Source: Candidatus Proruminimicrobium quisquiliarum | GTDB taxonomy: Bacteria > Elusimicrobiota > Endomicrobiia > Endomicrobiales > Endomicrobiaceae | NCBI GenBank assembly: GCA_018433245.1 | Contig: JAHDRN010000001.1 | Coordinates: 310,001 to 374,000, forward strand | Length of the DNA stretch: 64,000 nucleotides | Reading direction: 5' to 3' | Program-made: the position numbers and the translations under genes | The notes under the pieces: generated by a model | Told to the model about the DNA's origin: nothing | What the model saw: only the letters and a program-made list of their open reading frames with translations | Databases searched by the model: none | Shown here: one piece after another, positions 1,569 to 9,451 of the stretch | How positions within the stretch are numbered: the stretch's first letter is position 1 | Layout: each line of letters starts with the position of its first letter

Positions 1569-2669
1569 ATGAATATAGGTATAATAGATGCAGATCTCTT
1601 GGATAAGGGTACAAATTACCCTAATTTAGCATTGATGAAAATTAGTGCTTATAAAAAAGAACAAGGTCATTTTGTAAACTTGCTACAGTCATATAATCAG
1701 TTTTTTAATTTTGATCATGTTTATATTTCTAAAGTATTTAGTTTTACCAAAATTCCAGAGTATATTTTGGATAAAAAAAATATTACTATTGGTGGTACTG
1801 GTTTTTTTATTGATGGTGGAAAGAATCTTGATTGGAGATATGAACATCATATGCCCGATTATAACTTATATTTAGAATATGTTAATAATAAATTGGTAGA
1901 AGGCAGTTCATTACGTAATTTTGATTACTACACCAAGTATTCTCTTGGTTTTACAACAAGAGGTTGTTTTAGAAAATGTAATTTTTGTGTAAATAAAAAA
2001 TATGATCACCCAATGGCTCACTCTCCGGTATCGGAATTTTTGGATACAAATAGACCATATATAAGCTTGCTAGACGATAATTTTTTAGCTTTTAAAGATT
2101 GGGAAAGAATTTTAGATGATATAGAATCTACGGATAAACCATTTCAATTTAAGCAAGGATTAGATATAAGATTATTAACAAGTAAATCAGCTAAACGACT
2201 TTCAAAAACAAAGTATTTAGGAGATTTTATTTTTGCTTTTGATTATATTAAGGATAGGAATTTAATAGAAAAAAAATTAAATCTATGGCGTGAATATAAT
2301 CATAGAACAACCAAGTTATATATTCTTTGTGCTTTTGAATCACAAGATGAAAAAGATTTAGTTAATATATTTGAAAGACTGAAAATTTTAATGTCATATG
2401 GATGTATTCCATATTTGATGAGATATCAAAAATATAAAGACAGCATATATAAGGATATATATATTCAGTTGGCACGATGGTGTAATCAACCTCAATTTTT
2501 TAAAAAAATGTCTTTTAGAGAGTTCTGCGAAGCAAATCAGTATTATCACAAAAATAAAAAAACATTGTGTAAAGCATATAAATCTATGCTTGATTTTGAA
2601 ATAATGTTCCCTCTTATTGCTAAAAAATATTTTAATTTAAAATATGAAAAAATTAATAGATATTTTTAG
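1569..2669 (+). CDS. Radical SAM protein, first gene of the candidate novel cassette
   Basis: This 366-residue protein has the radical SAM cluster motif C133-x3-C137-x2-C140, in RGCFRKCNFC, so it should bind a 4Fe-4S cluster and cleave S-adenosylmethionine. The first ~110 residues resemble the N-terminal segment of B12-binding radical SAM proteins, but I see no cobalamin DxHxxG motif. LLDDNFLAF follows at ~168. The substrate is unknown. There is no clear Shine-Dalgarno before the ATG, so the mRNA may be leaderless. It heads a same-strand run of five AT-rich genes: the 60 bases at 2281 contain 17 G+C, against 30 in a sampled line at 16381. A nucleic-acid modifying role is inferred from the nuclease/helicase neighbours only. 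Confidence 0.8.
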   Translation: MNIGIIDADLLDKGTNYPNLALMKISAYKKEQGHFVNLLQSYNQFFNFDHVYISKVFSFTKIPEYILDKKNITIGGTGFFIDGGKNLDWRYEHHMPDYNLYLEYVNNKLVEGSSLRNFDYYTKYSLGFTTRGCFRKCNFCVNKKYDHPMAHSPVSEFLDTNRPYISLLDDNFLAFKDWERILDDIESTDKPFQFKQGLDIRLLTSKSAKRLSKTKYLGDFIFAFDYIKDRNLIEKKLNLWREYNHRTTKLYILCAFESQDEKDLVNIFERLKILMSYGCIPYLMRYQKYKDSIYKDIYIQLARWCNQPQFFKKMSFREFCEANQYYHKNKKTLCKAYKSMLDFEIMFPLIAKKYFNLKYEKINRYF

Positions 2670-2678
2670 GAGGTATTT

Positions 2679-3686
2679 ATGATGAGTAGCAAAGTTGAAT
2701 ATAGAAAAATAGAAATTAGTTTGCTTAAAACAGACATAACAAATCCTAGAATAGCTAGATTCCTTGAAATATACAAGGAATCTCCTGAAGCTATAAATGA
2801 TGCTGCTGTTTCTTTGGCGCTGGGTATTGGAAGTTTGGATTGTGCGACTTTAGAAGAATCAATAAAAGCCAATAATGGAATTATTCACCCAATTATAGTG
2901 AATAAGACAAAAAACAATGAGTTTATAGTTATTGAAGGCAACACTAGAGTACAAATATATAAAAATTATCAAAAAAGGCAAGTTGCAGGAGATTGGGATA
3001 CAATACCAGCAGTTATATATTCTGATATTTCAGAGAATGAAATTGATTCTATAAGGCTGCAATCTCATTTAGTTGGACCTAGAGATTGGGACCCATATTC
3101 AAAAGCTAAATTTCTAAATTCCCTAAGCAACCAAGCAAGATTGCCAATGTCCCAATTAGTTTCATTTTGTGGAGGAAATGCCAACGAAGTAAAAAAAATG
3201 ATAGATGCATATAATGATATGGAAACTTATTATAGACCAAATTTACCTAGTGATAATGATTTTGATGAGAAAAAATTTTCAGCCTTTAAAGAATTGCAAA
3301 ATAGAAGTATATTAGAAAGTTTAATCAAGTATGGTTATACAAAAGTTGATTTTGGAAAGTGGGTTATAAATGATAACATAGATAAAATGCAGAATGTTCG
3401 TATGCTACCACTTATTTTAAAAAATAATAAGGCAAAAGAAGTTTTCTTAAAAGAGAATGCAACAGAAGCTGAAAAAATTTTACATGTAGAAGAATTTAAG
3501 GATAAAGATTTTAATAATTTATCATATGATTATCTTGCAGCATATTTAACAAATAAATTAGAAGATATTAAATATGAAGAGATTAGAAATTTAAGAAGTA
3601 ATGCAAGCTATGAAGACAAAAAGACAACATTATTGACTTTAATGGATACATTGAAGTTTATCGTTGACGATATAAATAAGGAATAG
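2679..3686 (+). CDS. ParB-like (ParB/Srx-superfamily) protein 1
   Basis: 335 residues. The N-terminal domain carries ParB-superfamily features: NPR at 22-24, an IHPIIV strand at 69-74, and EGNTR at 86-90, corresponding to the nucleotide-binding GxxR region of ParB and the DGQxR motifs of DndB and SspE. A second motif, HLVGPRDWDPY at 130-140, recurs in the ParB-like protein at 5588. The rest is helical without a recognised domain. A strong AGGAGG precedes the ATG, 9 bases after the radical SAM stop codon. There is no ParA partner and no sign of a plasmid partition site, so chromosome segregation is unlikely. Function is unknown; a nucleotide-dependent DNA sensor or switch is my inference. Confidence 0.75.
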   Translation: MMSSKVEYRKIEISLLKTDITNPRIARFLEIYKESPEAINDAAVSLALGIGSLDCATLEESIKANNGIIHPIIVNKTKNNEFIVIEGNTRVQIYKNYQKRQVAGDWDTIPAVIYSDISENEIDSIRLQSHLVGPRDWDPYSKAKFLNSLSNQARLPMSQLVSFCGGNANEVKKMIDAYNDMETYYRPNLPSDNDFDEKKFSAFKELQNRSILESLIKYGYTKVDFGKWVINDNIDKMQNVRMLPLILKNNKAKEVFLKENATEAEKILHVEEFKDKDFNNLSYDYLAAYLTNKLEDIKYEEIRNLRSNASYEDKKTTLLTLMDTLKFIVDDINKE

Positions 3687-3689
3687 ATA

Positions 3690-4106
3690 ATGTTAGAATC
3701 ATTGAAACATAGTGATTTAGTCCAAAAGATTTATGTTGTATTTAAAGGAATAATTCCGGTACACTCATACTGCTTTGTATGTATCGATTCTATTGAAAGT
3801 GTACAAAAACCTCCGAAAATAAATTCTAGTTACATTCCAGACCTTTATTATTTTTCTAACAATCTCTTTTTGATAGGTGAAGCAAAAACCACAAGAGATT
3901 TAAGTAGAGAACATAGTATAGAACAATATAAATGTTTTTTAGATGCTTGCTTGCAACATAAAAATAACAGTAGTTTTATATTAGGAGTTGAGTGGAATGA
4001 TTTTGTTACTGCAAAAAATATGTTAAGAAAATTAAAAAAACAGTATGGTTATGATGCAATAAATATAACAGTTGTAAATGATTTTGGACTTGTAAATACG
4101 ATATGA
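3690..4106 (+). CDS. Small PD-(D/E)XK-type nuclease-like protein
   Basis: 138 residues. The core shows P50-D51 at the start of one strand, then G63-E64-A65-K66 after a second strand (LFLIGEAKT), and a later helix HSIEQYKCFLDAC. This spacing matches the D...ExK active site of the PD-(D/E)XK superfamily (restriction-endonuclease-like, VRR-NUC or Mrr-like). The protein is shorter than a typical restriction enzyme and has no DNA-binding domain of its own, which fits a subunit working with the helicase. It starts 3 bases after the ParB-like gene and its stop overlaps the helicase start by 4 bases (ATGA), implying translational coupling. Confidence 0.7.
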   Translation: MLESLKHSDLVQKIYVVFKGIIPVHSYCFVCIDSIESVQKPPKINSSYIPDLYYFSNNLFLIGEAKTTRDLSREHSIEQYKCFLDACLQHKNNSSFILGVEWNDFVTAKNMLRKLKKQYGYDAINITVVNDFGLVNTI

Positions 4107-5575
4107 ATAAAATTCGACTAAAAAAAGAACCTTCTCTTATAGCAAAATTGAATTCATTCCCATATCAACAAGAAGCATTTAATGCTATAAAAGATTTAAA
4201 ATACTCAGCTATTTTTCATGAACAAGGATTAGGAAAGACGAAAATAGCCATAGATCTTATATTGTATTGGCTTAAAAATAAAGATATAGATACTGTATTA
4301 GTGTTTACAAAAAAACAACTTGTTCAAAATTGGATTAATGAATTTAAAATTCATACAGATATAAAACCTTCAATTTTAACCAATAATAAAAGAGATAATT
4401 TTTTTGTTTTTAATGGAACATCTCGTGTCATTGTTGCTAATTTTGAAATTGTATTATCTGAAAAAGAGAGAATTTTTTTATTTTCTAAAGCAAGAAATCT
4501 TGCAATAATTATTGATGAATCTACAAAATTGAAAAATCCAGAATCAGCAATAGCTAAGAATTTCCATTCTCTATCGGATAGTTTTAAAATCAAGACAATA
4601 ATGACAGGAACTCCAATAGCAAATAGACCTTATGATATTTGGTCTCAAATTTTCTTTTTAGATAGAGGAGATAGTTTAGGTGTTAATTTTTCAGCATTTA
4701 AAAGTAAGACTGATCTCGAAAATGAGCTTGGTAAAAGTAGTTGTAAAAGAAAATATTTTGAAGACAATGTATCTTTGATTTTTGATAAGATAAAAAAATT
4801 TTCAATAAGAGAAACAAAAAATAGTCATATTATTACTTTGCCGGATAAAAAGTATATCAATATTAATGCTAAATTTGAACAGACACAAAAAAAATTATAT
4901 GACAAAGTTAAACAAAATATTGCTATTTTAATTCAGAAAAATGACAAAGTGTTTTTGGATAATTATAATTCTATTTTAAAAAAATTATTAAGATTAGTTC
5001 AGGTTGCATCAAATCCAATATTAATTGATGAAATGTATGGTTGTATGTCAGGTAAAGAACAAGAGTTAATAAAAATTGTTGATGTTATTATGGAAAAAAA
5101 TGAAAAATGTATCATATGGACTAGTTTTATTGAAAATGTGGAATATTTTTTTAAAAAGTATTCAAAATATAATCCAGTAAAGATACATGGTGGAATGAAA
5201 ATTTATGATAGAAATAAATCAGTTGATAAATTTAAGAATGATGAATATAGGATTTTGTTTGCAACTCCTCAATCGTCAAAAGAAGGTCTTACATTAACCA
5301 TGGCTAATCATGTTATTTTTTATGATAGAAGTTTTAGTCTTGATGATTATTTGCAAGCACAAGATAGAATACATAGAATATCTCAGAAAAAAACATGTTA
5401 TGTATATAACATAATTCTTCAAGATAGTATTGATATATGGATAGACCTATTATTAAAAGCAAAACAAAATGCAGCATCATTGGCACAAGGGGATATTTCA
5501 AAAAATGAATATCAACGTATATCAGATTATACTTTTGCTACTATTATAAAAAAAATATTATCTTTAGAACATTAG
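4103..5575 (+). CDS. SNF2/superfamily 2 DNA helicase-translocase
   Basis: 490 residues with a full SF2 motor. Motif I is HEQGLGKT (39-46), motif II DEST (138-141, where SNF2 proteins usually have DEAH), and motif III TGTPIANRP (168-176). In the second RecA domain, IIWTSF (~337-342), the GLTLTMANHVIFYD region and motif VI QAQDRIHRISQ (418-428) match the SNF2-type QxxDRxHRxGQ. There are no accessory DNA-binding or nuclease domains, so it is close to a minimal motor. Coupled by ATGA overlap to the PD-(D/E)XK gene, it probably supplies ATP-driven DNA translocation for that nuclease. The pairing resembles helicase-nuclease modules of several restriction and anti-phage systems. Confidence 0.88.
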   Translation: MNKIRLKKEPSLIAKLNSFPYQQEAFNAIKDLKYSAIFHEQGLGKTKIAIDLILYWLKNKDIDTVLVFTKKQLVQNWINEFKIHTDIKPSILTNNKRDNFFVFNGTSRVIVANFEIVLSEKERIFLFSKARNLAIIIDESTKLKNPESAIAKNFHSLSDSFKIKTIMTGTPIANRPYDIWSQIFFLDRGDSLGVNFSAFKSKTDLENELGKSSCKRKYFEDNVSLIFDKIKKFSIRETKNSHIITLPDKKYININAKFEQTQKKLYDKVKQNIAILIQKNDKVFLDNYNSILKKLLRLVQVASNPILIDEMYGCMSGKEQELIKIVDVIMEKNEKCIIWTSFIENVEYFFKKYSKYNPVKIHGGMKIYDRNKSVDKFKNDEYRILFATPQSSKEGLTLTMANHVIFYDRSFSLDDYLQAQDRIHRISQKKTCYVYNIILQDSIDIWIDLLLKAKQNAASLAQGDISKNEYQRISDYTFATIIKKILSLEH

Positions 5576-5587
5576 GGGGGGATTTAG

Positions 5588-6568
5588 ATGCAAAATAAAT
5601 TAGTCATAGGCAAAAAAGAATATTTAGTAGAAGAAAAAGATATAAATCATTCAGAGTTATGTTTTTATTCGGAAAATCCGCGTATCTATTCAGTGTTAGA
5701 TGCTGAAAATGAAAATCCAACGCAAGAAATTATTGAAGAAACATTGTCACAAATGGACCATGTCAAACAATTAAAAATTTCTATTCTAGCAAATGGTGGC
5801 TTGATAGACCCAATAATAGTTAGAGATGGTGATTATGTAGTTCTTGAAGGGAATAGTAGACTAGCTGCCTATAGACTTTTATCAAAAAATGACCCTATAA
5901 AATGGGGGAGAATAAAATGTAAAGTTTTGCCAAAAAATATATCAGAAGCAGCAATATTTACTTTATTAGGACAGTATCATATTATAGGTAGAAAAGATTG
6001 GAGCCCTTATGAACAAGCTGGGTATTTATATAGAAAGAAAATGACAACAGGTGAGGACATAAAAATTATTTCGGAAGAATTAGGATTAGCTTCAAATACT
6101 GCTAAACAATATGTTGAAATATATTCCTTTATGAAAGAACATAATGAATTAAAACAAGAAAAATGGAGTTATTACGAAGAATATTTAAAAAATCAAGGGA
6201 TTAAAAATTATCGCAAAACCTTTGACAGAATTGATGCGCAAATTGTTAAAAAAATAAAAAATGGAGAAATTCGTTTAGCACGGGATATTAGATCTCTAGG
6301 TTATATTGCCAAATCGGATTCTAAAGTTGCTAGAAGGTTAATGGGTGAAATAATTGATGGTAAAATTGATTTGTATTCAGCATATGAAAGATTTGAAGAG
6401 AGTGGCAAAACAGGACATTCTTTTTTAATTTTAAATAAATTTAGAAAAAGAATTAGAGAAGATGATTTTAAAAAAGACCTTGCAAACGAAAAACAAGATG
6501 TGGTTTTATTTGAATTAAAAAAAATAAGGTTAGAAGTTGAAAAAATTATAAAAACATTAGAAAATTAA
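5588..6568 (+). CDS. ParB-like (ParB/Srx-superfamily) protein 2
   Basis: 326 residues. It shares with the protein at 2679 the order NPR (30-32), LIDPIIV, EGNSR (87-91) and HIIGRKDWSPY (131-141), so the two are probably ancient paralogues. A helix-turn-helix-like stretch, ISEELGLASNTAKQYVEIYSF, follows at about 156-176, as in true ParB proteins. The C-terminal half is rich in Lys and Glu, with a possible terminal coiled coil. A G-rich ribosome-binding site (AGGGGGGGA) precedes the ATG. It closes the AT-rich cassette; the next gene is on the other strand. The role is unknown. Confidence 0.75.
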   Translation: MQNKLVIGKKEYLVEEKDINHSELCFYSENPRIYSVLDAENENPTQEIIEETLSQMDHVKQLKISILANGGLIDPIIVRDGDYVVLEGNSRLAAYRLLSKNDPIKWGRIKCKVLPKNISEAAIFTLLGQYHIIGRKDWSPYEQAGYLYRKKMTTGEDIKIISEELGLASNTAKQYVEIYSFMKEHNELKQEKWSYYEEYLKNQGIKNYRKTFDRIDAQIVKKIKNGEIRLARDIRSLGYIAKSDSKVARRLMGEIIDGKIDLYSAYERFEESGKTGHSFLILNKFRKRIREDDFKKDLANEKQDVVLFELKKIRLEVEKIIKTLEN

Positions 6569-6861: not shown

Positions 6862-7665
6862 TTATTTAAGATTTTTGCAGAGAGAGATTATAAAATCTTT
6901 ATTTAGTAAATTTAATTCGTTTATATCAAACAAGAAATTTCTTACATCTTCTCGGATTAGCTTAAAATCTGTTTTTTGAATTTTATCTATAACAAAATCT
7001 ATAAAGTTATTATCGGTAATTTTTAAATCTTTTTTTTCTGTTTGATATATGGCATTATTTAATAATTTTATATTTGGTTTTATTTTCTTTGATAAATACC
7101 AGACTAAATCATAAAAATCTCTGCCTTTTGTATATTTCCTAAAAAAACAAGCATGCAGTTTAGTAGCAAACATTGACGATAAGTCAAAAGACGTCACTTG
7201 GAACAAATATGTTTTATTTATTAACATAGTTTCTAAAGTCCAATCTTTAGGCGGATTAGTGTCTATTTCAAATTTTATAGATAACTTTTGATTATCAAAA
7301 ATTGATAAGTTCAATTCTTTTAATATCTTTGGAAACTTTAAAAAAGCAGAATGAACGTTGTTTGTAGTTTTAGGCGTCGTTTCAACTAGTATATTGTTTT
7401 GTTTAAAAAAATTTACGATATTATCATTTATTTTATTAAAGTCATATTGTTTTTTATTTATTAAAGAAAAATCCAGATCTTCTGAAAATCTGTTAATATC
7501 AAATAATATTCTTAATGCAGTTCCGCCCAAAAAAGCTATGTTATTAAATGCTTTTTGGTCATATATGTTTTTTAAAACCATTATTTGTAAAAATTCTCTC
7601 AAATAGTTTGTTTTTTCTTGTACTGATGTTGAGTTCTTTAATTGTTGTTTAATAACTTCTATCAT
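6862..7665 (-). CDS. abiEii: AbiEii-type nucleotidyltransferase toxin
   Basis: 267 residues of the AbiEii/AbiGii toxin family, a nucleotidyltransferase fold. FLGGTALR (45-52) and RFSEDLDFSL (59-68) are the family's GG..S/T and DxD active-site motifs, and KGRDFYDLVWYL is the usual downstream motif. Related toxins (MenA/AbiEii) block growth by transferring nucleotides, in known cases to tRNA. The start overlaps the end of the antitoxin gene by 17 bases, the usual antitoxin-first AbiE order. It probably acts in phage-induced growth arrest. Confidence 0.9.
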   Translation of the reverse strand: MIEVIKQQLKNSTSVQEKTNYLREFLQIMVLKNIYDQKAFNNIAFLGGTALRILFDINRFSEDLDFSLINKKQYDFNKINDNIVNFFKQNNILVETTPKTTNNVHSAFLKFPKILKELNLSIFDNQKLSIKFEIDTNPPKDWTLETMLINKTYLFQVTSFDLSSMFATKLHACFFRKYTKGRDFYDLVWYLSKKIKPNIKLLNNAIYQTEKKDLKITDNNFIDFVIDKIQKTDFKLIREDVRNFLFDINELNLLNKDFIISLCKNLK

Positions 7666-8296
7666 TTATATTCCCCTTTATAACTTTAATTAAATTATTA
7701 ATTACAATTATTAATTTTTTATTATTAAAAAGTTTTGTAAACAGTAATAACTTTTTAATATTCAATATATGTAAATTTTGAAATCTATAAGATGTTTCAA
7801 AAATATCTTTATCATTTTTATCAAATTTTGATAAATTAAAATATATAAAATCTGTTATAGCTTTTTCCGGCTCTGCCAGAAAATATTTCATGCCGTTATT
7901 ATCAGAAACTTGAATAAATCCTCTAAAAGCTGAAATTTTTATTGATTGATATGAAAATAAACCAAATTCATTTTGAAATTTAGCAGTTTTTTTAGTTGAA
8001 ACGGACGTAATATTCATAACAGTTTCAGGAATAAGCGCATATAAACTTAAAGCATATTCTAAGCTGACATAAGACGGGGAATATAATTGATTGGCAATAA
8101 ATACATTGCTGACATTTATTTTTCTATCATTTTTGTTTAATACATATAACCCTTTTTTTAACTGACTGATTAATCCTTTTTTAGTCCAATTATTTAATTG
8201 ATTATATGCAGTTTGAAAATTACATCCTTTAACTGAATCATTACTGTTAATAACAGGATAATTTTGAAAATAATCTTTAAATTCTGTATATTTCAT
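7649..8296 (-). CDS. abiEi: AbiEi-type antitoxin and autorepressor
   Basis: 215 residues. The N-terminal ~60 residues form a winged helix (FQTAYNQLNNWTKKGLISQL, then KKGLYVL), and the rest matches the AbiEi antitoxin C-terminal domain (SYVSLEYALSLY, with LAEPEKAITDFIYF later). AbiE is a type IV toxin-antitoxin system in which AbiEi represses its own promoter by binding inverted repeats. Exactly such a repeat lies 12 bases upstream of the start codon, at 8308-8329. Confidence 0.88.
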   Translation of the reverse strand: MKYTEFKDYFQNYPVINSNDSVKGCNFQTAYNQLNNWTKKGLISQLKKGLYVLNKNDRKINVSNVFIANQLYSPSYVSLEYALSLYALIPETVMNITSVSTKKTAKFQNEFGLFSYQSIKISAFRGFIQVSDNNGMKYFLAEPEKAITDFIYFNLSKFDKNDKDIFETSYRFQNLHILNIKKLLLFTKLFNNKKLIIVINNLIKVIKGNINDRSY

Positions 8297-8366: not shown

Positions 8367-8460
8367 TACACAAAAAGATTCAGAGGTGCTTTTCCTAAAC
8401 ATGTCAAAATATATTACTTTTCAAAAATCTGTATATCTTTTAATGAAAATATAAATTGTT

Positions 8461-8533
8461 TTGCCGTTATCGGCAAGAAACAACAGTATATTTAATTAAT
8501 ATTATTGATTTTTTGCCGATAATATGTTATGCT
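8461..8533 (+). promoter_or_regulatory. Promoter with paired operators for the Fic gene
   Basis: TTGATT (8505-8510) and TATGCT (8528-8533) are 17 bases apart. The decamer TTGCCGATAA lies in the spacer at 8513-8522, and its reverse complement TTATCGGCAA occurs at 8467-8476 inside the palindrome TTGCCG-TTAT-CGGCAA (8461-8476). Two facing copies, one across the spacer, look like a repressor site pair. The helix-turn-helix domain of the Fic protein itself is the natural candidate regulator. AAGGAGG follows, ahead of the start codon at 8555. Confidence 0.65.
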
Positions 8534-8554
8534 ATTGTTGCAAGGAGGGAATCA

Positions 8555-9451
8555 ATGAAATACTTATCGGTTGCAGAAACAGCAAAAAAATGGAACATAG
8601 CAGAAAGAACGGTCCGAAATTACTGTGCCGAAAAAAAGATACCTGATGCTTTCCTTACAGGCAAAACATGGAACATTCCTGAAAATGCAAAAAGACCTGA
8701 CCGGATAAATAAACATAAGGAAACTCTTAAAACACTGTTAGATTTTTTAAAAGCAGAAAAAAATAAAAAAGTATCAGGCGGTATTTATCATAAAATAGAA
8801 ATTGAACTGACGTATAATTCTAATCATATTGAAGGCAGTACGCTGACACATGAGCAGACACGTTACATATATGAAACTAATACTATTGCCGTTAATACAA
8901 AAACTGCAAATGTAGATGATATAATAGAAACAGCCAATCATTTCAAATGCATTGATATGATTATTGACCATGCAAATTACAAATTAAGTGAATCTTTTAT
9001 AAAAAAACTGCATGCAACACTTAAAAACGGAACAAGCGATTCCCGCAAAGACTGGTTTACTATAGGTGATTATAAAAAACTGCCAAACGAAGTAGGGGGC
9101 AATGAAACAACAGCTCCTGAGAAAGTTTCTAAAGCTGTTAAAGATTTATTGCAGATATATAACAAAAAAAATAAAAAGACATTTGCAGAATTACTGGAAT
9201 TTCACTACAAATTTGAAATAATCCATCCGTTTCAGGACGGAAACGGCCGTATAGGCAGATTAATTCTTTTTAAAGAGTGTTTAAAAAATAATATAGTGCC
9301 ATTTATAATTGATGAAAAATTAAAATTGTTTTATTACCGCGGATTGCAGAAATGGAAATCAGAACACGGATATCTCATAGATACCTGTCTGACCGCTCAG
9401 GATAAATTCAAAACATATTTGGATTATTTTCATATACCTTATAAGGATTAA
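8555..9451 (+). CDS. Fic family protein with N-terminal helix-turn-helix
   Basis: 298 residues from the ATG at 8555, which is preceded by AAGGAGG; the in-frame codons upstream to 8456 overlap the promoter and are not used. Residues 1-50 form a MerR/excisionase-like helix-turn-helix (VAETAKKWNIAERTVRNYC). The Fic core HPFQDGNGRIGR (224-235) is complete, with catalytic His224, so AMP transfer from ATP is expected. An inhibitory helix motif (S/T)xxxE(G/N) is present as SNHIEG (89-94), ahead of the core, as in class II self-inhibited Fic enzymes. The target is unknown. It lies divergent to the AbiE operon, inside the direct-repeat-bounded segment. Confidence 0.9.
   Translation: MKYLSVAETAKKWNIAERTVRNYCAEKKIPDAFLTGKTWNIPENAKRPDRINKHKETLKTLLDFLKAEKNKKVSGGIYHKIEIELTYNSNHIEGSTLTHEQTRYIYETNTIAVNTKTANVDDIIETANHFKCIDMIIDHANYKLSESFIKKLHATLKNGTSDSRKDWFTIGDYKKLPNEVGGNETTAPEKVSKAVKDLLQIYNKKNKKTFAELLEFHYKFEIIHPFQDGNGRIGRLILFKECLKNNIVPFIIDEKLKLFYYRGLQKWKSEHGYLIDTCLTAQDKFKTYLDYFHIPYKD

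Follow-up and report, generated by a model that had tools for sequence, protein, structure and literature searches.

Introduction

Among described systems, PD-lambda-5 stands close to the locus reported here. It is an experimentally selected anti-phage system, tested in a strain without the mrr region, and its authors describe it as compacted and restriction-modification plus abortive infection (RM+Abi)-like (Vassallo et al. 2022, PMC9519451). DpdB is presented as a ParB-like ATPase that takes part in modifying DNA (PMC12839542), DndB as a former member of the ParB superfamily (PMC10853773), and ParB-like DNases and nucleoside triphosphatases (NTPases) are discussed in conflict systems (PMC5512222). 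Here we analyse an operon in a 64,000-nucleotide stretch of Candidatus Proruminimicrobium quisquiliarum (contig JAHDRN010000001.1, positions 310,001 to 374,000), called the window throughout, in which two diverged ParB-like proteins, ParB1 and ParB2, bracket a putative nuclease and an SNF2 helicase. With moderate confidence, we read it as a restriction-modification-like defence operon, in which an exchangeable DNA-modification module, usually a radical S-adenosylmethionine (SAM) enzyme, would hold a ParB-nuclease-translocase core in check.

The locus resembles several known systems and differs from each. Like the canonical CTPase clamps ParB, Noc and KorB, both proteins are predicted to combine an N-domain with a helix-turn-helix (HTH) fold, and both have a QPR-like Box I (NPR) and a Box II GxxR (EGNTR or EGNSR); unlike those clamps, they carry HxxG in place of the Box III ENxxR, occur as two diverged copies around a nuclease-helicase pair, and match the Pfam family below or near its cut-off. 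PD-lambda-5 shares a related ParB-like N-domain, and its DNA methyltransferase partner B parallels the modification partner proposed here, but it has a single ParB-like protein of ~460 residues, with no paired paralogue and no nuclease-SNF2 pair. Its A protein matches only the N-domain of our proteins (ParB2 residues 16-105, 1.9e-8), and the partner in the window is a radical-SAM protein, not a methyltransferase; the PD-lambda-5 B model matches the Dam-like methyltransferase of one homologous locus, L025. With the Dpd and Dnd systems the locus has in common an SNF2 helicase (compare DpdE), a putative modification and restriction logic and, in 22 of the 80 loci described below, a DGQHR protein with the radical-SAM module. 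It departs from them in that no DpdA, DndC or DndD is found among the parts identified, that the modification enzyme would be a radical-SAM protein, and that ParB1 and ParB2 have no DndB match.

The SNF2 helicase also resembles Zorya ZorD and DISARM DrmD, and in one viral locus (L164) radical-SAM and GHKL genes lie beside DrmA and DrmB. Unlike in Zorya and DISARM, nuclease and helicase are separate genes here, and no ZorA, ZorB or ZorC is found among the parts identified; helicase scores fall far below the NCBIfam cut-offs (65.1 bits against a cut-off of 1500 for ZorD). Type II restriction-modification systems of the DpnII kind offer a last parallel, since in two loci (L023 and L025) the core is embedded in an operon of Dam methyltransferase, N6/N4 methyltransferase and DpnII. 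Most loci, in contrast, have no classical methyltransferase or restriction endonuclease beside the core, and cleavage would be the work of a motor-driven complex.

Results

The operon of the window

Five intact genes on the + strand, with successive gaps of 9, 3, -4 and 12 bp, make up one operon:

1569..2669, + strand: radical-SAM protein, 366 residues, matching phrog_9298 ('radical SAM domain protein', E 7e-57); presumed DNA-modification enzyme
1965-1988, + strand: CxxxCxxC motif of the radical-SAM protein
2679..3686, + strand: ParB1, 335 residues; ParB-like N-domain (PF02195), HTH domain and helical C-terminus in the predicted model
3066..3098, + strand: HLVGPRDWDPY of ParB1, at the Box III position by profile alignment and motif search
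3690..4106, + strand: putative PD-(D/E)xK nuclease, 138 residues, classed from the motif PD...GEAKT at 3837-3887
4103..5575, + strand: SNF2/SF2 helicase-translocase, 490 residues (PF00176, 1.5e-27; PF00271, 3.5e-20)
5588..6568, + strand: ParB2, 326 residues; ParB-like N-domain, HTH domain and helical C-terminus in the predicted model
5978..6010, + strand: HIIGRKDWSPY of ParB2, at the Box III position by profile alignment and motif search

A previous sequence-only reading of this DNA had singled out the two ParB-like paralogues on either side of the nuclease-helicase pair. Both open reading frames (ORFs) are indeed intact, with the motifs as it described them. Its unit was incomplete, since the radical-SAM gene at 1569-2669 belongs to the same operon.

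The core is near-invariant in order and co-inherited

We scanned 84,980 species genomes with an alignment of seven ParB1 sequences; 94 relatives were found and 80 loci were kept. The order ParB1-nuclease-SNF2-ParB2 was exact on one strand in 74 of these 80. Among the six exceptions, L027, L046 and L087 are cut within the core by contig ends, the deviation of L073 is an ORF-start effect, the helicase frame is split in L079 and the helicase is truncated in L038. Successive gaps within the core did not exceed 30 bp in 69/70, 69/70 and 74/76 cases. The loci are spread over 16 named phyla (four have no phylum assignment) and the core is rare and patchy within groups: it was present in 1 of 99 relatives of the host, and in 2 of 385, 2 of 291 (an overlapping set) and 3 of 391 genomes. 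It also occurs on plasmids and viral contigs, and hosts carrying the operon include Rhizobium leguminosarum WSM1325 (plasmid pR132505), Mesorhizobium sp. NZP2077 and Clostridium paridis YIM B02565. The idea that the pair is typical of phages was rejected: tblastn against phage records returned no ParB1 and only five partial ParB2 matches. A ParB2-only scan of viral contigs found none.

In a FastTree tree of 183 proteins, which has long branches, the ParB1 (88 rows) and ParB2 (88 rows) sequences were split by one branch with support 99. The two form an ancient pair, each its own clade. FastTree was unsure where to place L009, a Bradyrhizobium plasmid variant (L009:7791-12861) in which three ParB-like genes stand ahead of the nuclease and helicase, together with GHKL, radical-SAM and DGQHR genes. 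Pairwise distances, uncorrected for shared ancestry, correlated most strongly inside each module: between ParB1 and ParB2 (r 0.76, 88 loci), between ParB1 and SNF2 (0.79) and between radical SAM and GHKL (0.88, 51 loci). Values were lower between core proteins and radical SAM (0.49-0.59), and all of these correlations exceeded those of 999 permutations. Separate clades, the same bracketing in each locus and correlated distances fit two different subunits of one complex. In many gut loci (L003:11867-14570, L017, L018, L022, L024, L028 and L035) ParB2 is followed by a protein related to an S24-peptidase-containing protein, perhaps a regulator.

ParB1 and ParB2 are predicted to be diverged ParB/KorB/Noc-fold paralogues

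That the two copies are paralogues, as had been proposed, was borne out both by BLASTP (27% identity over 233 residues, E 8e-18) and by profile-profile comparison (256 columns, probability 99.9, E 3e-33). The motifs NPR, EGNTR and HLVGPRDWDPY of ParB1 are at residues 22, 86 and 130; the ParB2 equivalents are NPR at 30, EGNSR at 87 and HIIGRKDWSPY at 131, so that EGN and H are 44 residues apart in each protein. We counted these motifs in 94 ParB1 and 90 ParB2 sequences, leaving aside the duplicates L102-L109 and loci L009-L012, L100 and L101. EGNTR is kept in 94/94 ParB1 and EGN[TSA]R in 87/90 ParB2 sequences. The pattern HxxGxxxWx4A is found in 92/94 and 85/90, respectively, and the stricter HxxGxxxWxP[YF] in 67/94 and 76/90; the exact 44-residue spacing holds in 87/92 and 82/85. 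The histidine itself is invariant among aligned rows, both in ParB1 (H130, 72/72) and in ParB2 (H131, 83/83). Conservation of the motifs in the two families is far above chance.

Library matches to the pair are faint. PF02195 reaches ParB1 with E 9.8e-6 and 26.0 bits against a cut-off of 26.3 in hmmscan (27.2 bits in the genome search), and ParB2 with 14.7 bits. Pfam DndB (PF14072) and DUF262 models gave no match to either protein at E<=1. PADLOC models match the N-terminal part only (PDC-M38A on ParB1 residues 49-218, 3.6e-11; PD-Lambda-5_A); the label PDC-M38A and several of the PHROG matches name no function. In profile searches against PDB sequences the best ParB1 match had a value of 0.0049, and ParB2 matched ParB chains at 0.55 or worse. 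The fold assignment therefore rests on models. AlphaFold2 models were built from 68 (ParB1) and 79 (ParB2) sequences, with pLDDT values of 91.5 and 92.8, and for both Foldseek placed ParB, Noc and KorB in its top ranks. Using VIA-align, the ParB1 model aligned with Myxococcus xanthus ParB-CTPgammaS over 94 residues (Z 12.2, 1.7 Å), and the ParB2 model with M. xanthus ParB, also over 94 residues (Z 11.1, 1.8 Å). KorB aligned over 197 residues with each (Z 12.2 and 3.8 Å for ParB1, Z 12.6 and 4.5 Å for ParB2), a length that takes in the N-domain and the HTH domain of both copies. Sulfiredoxin (Srx) chains scored lower than ParB, with Z up to 8.7 (ParB1) and 8.2 (ParB2), the superfamily fold being a shared one. 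Thus, ParB1 and ParB2 are predicted to share the ParB/KorB/Noc fold, rather than having unrelated folds, and an HTH domain that had been noticed in one copy only is predicted in both.

We aligned the profiles with 27 canonical ParBs from related genomes. EGN(T/S)R falls on GERR of Box II, whose GxxR arginine is retained in ParB1 and ParB2, and H-x2-G-x3-W-x-P-x3-A falls on ENxxR-x-DLxPxEEA, that is, Box III, with the histidine at the E or the N, within one residue. NPR lies outside the aligned columns and was matched to QPR of Box I by eye only. The canonical Box III pattern is present in 24 of the 27 ParBs, and ParB1 and ParB2 are without ENxxR. The sequence-only reading had set the H-x2-G-x2-DW motif outside the ParB description; as an element foreign to ParB it was rejected, since its aligned position is Box III and further ParB-like proteins have it too. 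H-x2-G-x3-W marks a wider clade of ParB-like proteins and is found in Wphi gp98, in proteins of Persicobacter and of Vibrio, and in viral contig L100; the ParB-like proteins of two further phage loci examined, L140 and L141, do not have it. The possibility that it is common to all ParB-like phage proteins, also raised in that reading, therefore holds for some of them and fails for others. Since an invariant histidine replaces the Box III ENxxR, canonical CTP hydrolysis should not be assumed; nucleotide binding by the pair is plausible. A part in chromosome or plasmid partition was rejected on the grounds that Box III is lost and that the host encodes its own canonical ParB elsewhere in the genome; no ParA was found among nine window proteins scanned with Pfam, and ParA neighbours were not surveyed.

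A putative nuclease and an SNF2 motor form the middle of the core

The 138-residue protein had no usable family in the libraries scanned (a single PHROG match at 0.097), and a PDB profile search found no relative. Its assignment as a PD-(D/E)xK nuclease would follow from the motif: D51, E64 and K66 of PD...ExK are invariant in 24/24 aligned relatives, and the motif was found in 83 of 92 homologues. The SNF2 homologues have Walker A in 91/92 and QxxxRxxR in 90/92 cases, and phrog_62, a family of phage helicases, matches the window protein (3e-93).

A radical-SAM gene, or in one clade methyltransferases, adjoins the core

A radical-SAM gene adjoins the core in 70 of the 80 loci (69 in the non-overlapping ORF set). 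CxxxCxxC is present in 83 of 84 homologues; Pfam Radical_SAM gives the window copy only 12.6 bits. Of 62 loci with 2 kb available on both flanks of the core, 58 carry radical SAM. Among the other four, L025, L034 and L043 carry D12-class (Dam-type) DNA methyltransferases and L038 is decayed. L023, with 1.4 kb available downstream, has a D12-class methyltransferase as well; the remaining loci without radical SAM (L031, L046, L052, L087 and L088) end on one side.

The four methyltransferase loci form one Bacilli clade with support 100, nested among radical-SAM loci, which indicates one replacement event. The DpnII operon normally reads dpnM-dpnA-dpnB. In L023 and L025 the order is Dam methyltransferase, N6/N4 methyltransferase, ParB1, nuclease, SNF2, ParB2, DpnII endonuclease, with PF04556 matching the last at 1.6e-109 and 5e-108, respectively; in L023 an ORF of 183 residues lies between the two methyltransferases. 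L034 and L043 combine the core with a Dam-like methyltransferase and another type II restriction endonuclease. A PDB profile search with the DUF6996/6997 restriction endonuclease found no relative. No second independent swap was found in a scan with a Bacilli ParB1 alignment, and widening to the sets of 385, 291 and 391 genomes added two radical-SAM loci and no methyltransferase locus. Across the 80 loci, the gene content beside the core comes to methyltransferases in four and radical SAM in 70, which is compatible with a putative restriction-modification system.

The radical-SAM module also stands beside other effectors

A GHKL ATPase (HATPase_c_3, 2.3e-10) accompanies the core in 39 of 80 loci, and a DGQHR protein does so in 22, with matches to Pfam DndB (1.8e-11), NCBIfam DGQHR (2e-44) and PADLOC DpdB (1.5e-17). 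We scanned viral contigs with the radical-SAM family, which gave at least 467 relatives, and kept 79 loci. In three of them (L163, L173 and L175) radical SAM and GHKL lie beside HerA (profile E 9e-59 to solved HerA) and a candidate NurA-like protein. In L164 they lie with DrmA (3e-150), DrmB (1e-52) and a NERD-helicase, and this region (L164:1-9484) is possibly a DISARM variant with radical SAM as its modification enzyme. The module stands beside a PD-lambda-5 A protein (8e-72) in L172, and in L166 beside a DndB/DpdB-like (DGQHR) protein of 767 residues. None of these stretches contains the ParB core. A Marinitoga virus has radical SAM without GHKL, next to genes annotated as HerA and as a Rad50/Mre11-associated exonuclease. 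Other viral radical-SAM loci have no such partner among their labelled genes.

Plasmids pNL1 and pAtAB2-73d and a plasmid of Agrobacterium sp. S7/73 carry DGQHR-radical SAM-GHKL together with a DGQHR protein of ~770 residues, again with no ParB core in the stretches; the large L166 protein is a homologue of the ones in pNL1 and S7/73 (31-34%, E 4e-106 or better). Near DGQHR-radical SAM-GHKL modules, L065, L069, L091, L092 and L233-L235 have a PIN-like protein of ~560-650 residues and a second GHKL ATPase. Phage locus L140 has its radical-SAM gene overlapping a ParB-methyltransferase fusion; in L141 the overlap is with a ParB-like gene. Phage radical-SAM genes of L142, L143 and L140 lie near genes annotated as phosphoadenosine phosphosulfate reductase and DNA methyltransferase, a hint of phage DNA modification.

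The core, then, rarely swaps its modification partner, and the radical-SAM module swaps its effector. This two-way exchange of partners is the main argument that radical SAM represents the modification side.

Surroundings of the operon

Directly downstream of the operon, on the - strand, is an AbiEii-AbiEi type IV toxin-antitoxin pair (window 6862-8296), followed at 8456-9451 by a Fic protein that has an HTH at its N-terminus (PADLOC candidate PDC-S04, 1.6e-108), ORFs related to which also flank loci L016, L034 and L093. Just 5' of the operon, at 1117-1300, are tRNA-Arg and tRNA-His, a possible island boundary.

Discussion

If the locus is a restriction-modification-like defence operon, its core would consist of ParB1, ParB2, a small PD-(D/E)xK nuclease and an SNF2 translocase, and its modification module of the radical-SAM enzyme, joined in other loci by a GHKL ATPase and a DndB/DpdB-like (DGQHR) protein; Dam-type methyltransferases could take the place of this module. 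Self DNA would be marked by the radical-SAM enzyme. A ParB1-ParB2 heterodimer would then load on unmarked DNA, by means of HTH domains and a ParB clamp gated by NTP, and would recruit or license the SNF2 motor. The motor would travel along the DNA and deliver the nuclease, leading to cleavage. What computation shows is the fold of both ParB proteins, the conserved motifs of nuclease, helicase and radical SAM, the gene order, the co-inheritance and the exchange of partners; the activities in this scheme are inferred. More tentatively, we propose a general form of this scheme: the radical-SAM enzyme, often with GHKL and the DndB/DpdB-like protein, may place a novel DNA mark, and interchangeable effectors (ParB1-nuclease-SNF2-ParB2, HerA-NurA, DrmAB, PD-lambda-5 A or the large DGQHR protein) may restrict DNA that does not have it, the ParB heterodimer being the sensor clamp in the present operon.

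Several observations weigh against a restriction-modification role. The argument from replacement is thin, as there is a single methyltransferase replacement in four related loci, and the type II operons there hold a complete methyltransferase-endonuclease set that could work without the core. We know of no DNA-modification activity in this radical-SAM family. It may act on a protein or on RNA instead: its nearest solved relatives by profile are RimO and MiaB, protein and tRNA methylthiotransferases, at only E 0.04-0.08. Among the NCBIfam matches of two members are B12-type radical-SAM methylases, with scores far under the cut-off. GHKL and DGQHR genes are absent from the first 20 kb of the window. 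Among the alternative effectors the NurA-like assignment is weak (0.0097), and the 5' contig end of L164 cuts DrmA, so that a DISARM methylase may lie outside. The distance correlations, being uncorrected, may in part reflect shared ancestry, and loss of the Box III ENxxR would argue against ParB-like CTP hydrolysis.

Some of these points would suit an abortive or NTP-depleting sensor, in which the ParB pair, by sensing DNA damage or by sensing or hydrolysing nucleotides, triggers killing of the infected cell by the nuclease and helicase, with the radical-SAM enzyme acting on a protein or tRNA and not on DNA. The kinship with RimO and MiaB fits this, as do the published proposals that ParB/Srx proteins are NTPases and nucleases of conflict systems (PMC10853773, PMC12839542, PMC5512222), and the RM+Abi description of PD-lambda-5 (PMC9519451). 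We nevertheless consider it unlikely: a nuclease-SNF2 pair fits DNA restriction, and DNA methyltransferases fill the radical-SAM slot in one clade. It seems quite improbable that the core is instead an accessory of modification, with ParB clamps and SNF2 opening or scanning DNA for the radical-SAM enzyme or methyltransferase and the nuclease guarding against failure. DpdB-type ParB-like ATPases are said to take part in Dpd modification (PMC12839542), and methyltransferase and endonuclease genes flank the core in L023 and L025, but radical SAM and GHKL are also found next to alternative effector genes in loci that have no core. A mobile-element cassette for DNA maintenance or replication (plasmid or phage partition, or recombination) is very improbable despite the occurrence of the core on plasmids and viral contigs, the phrog_62 match and the abundance of radical-SAM relatives in viral contigs, given genomes of 16 named phyla with no constant mobile-element partner, a canonical ParB elsewhere in the host, and the linkage to restriction-modification and defence genes.

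The restriction-modification-like operon, as we read it, appears to be a restriction (anti-virus) system of an undescribed kind, the principle of modification plus restriction itself being known. No PADLOC model spans the ParB pair beyond its N-terminal part. We found no description of the operon in the open full-text literature, a search that left subscription papers and preprints mostly outside, so that its absence from print is not shown. The operon is directly testable, as cultured hosts carry it. If our reading is true, radical-SAM chemistry would join the known ways in which bacteria mark their own DNA, and a ParB-type clamp would serve as a restriction sensor rather than in segregation. 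Divergent orphan ParB proteins are largely uncharacterised according to a 2025 survey (PMC12704722), and one group of them would thereby be assigned a role.

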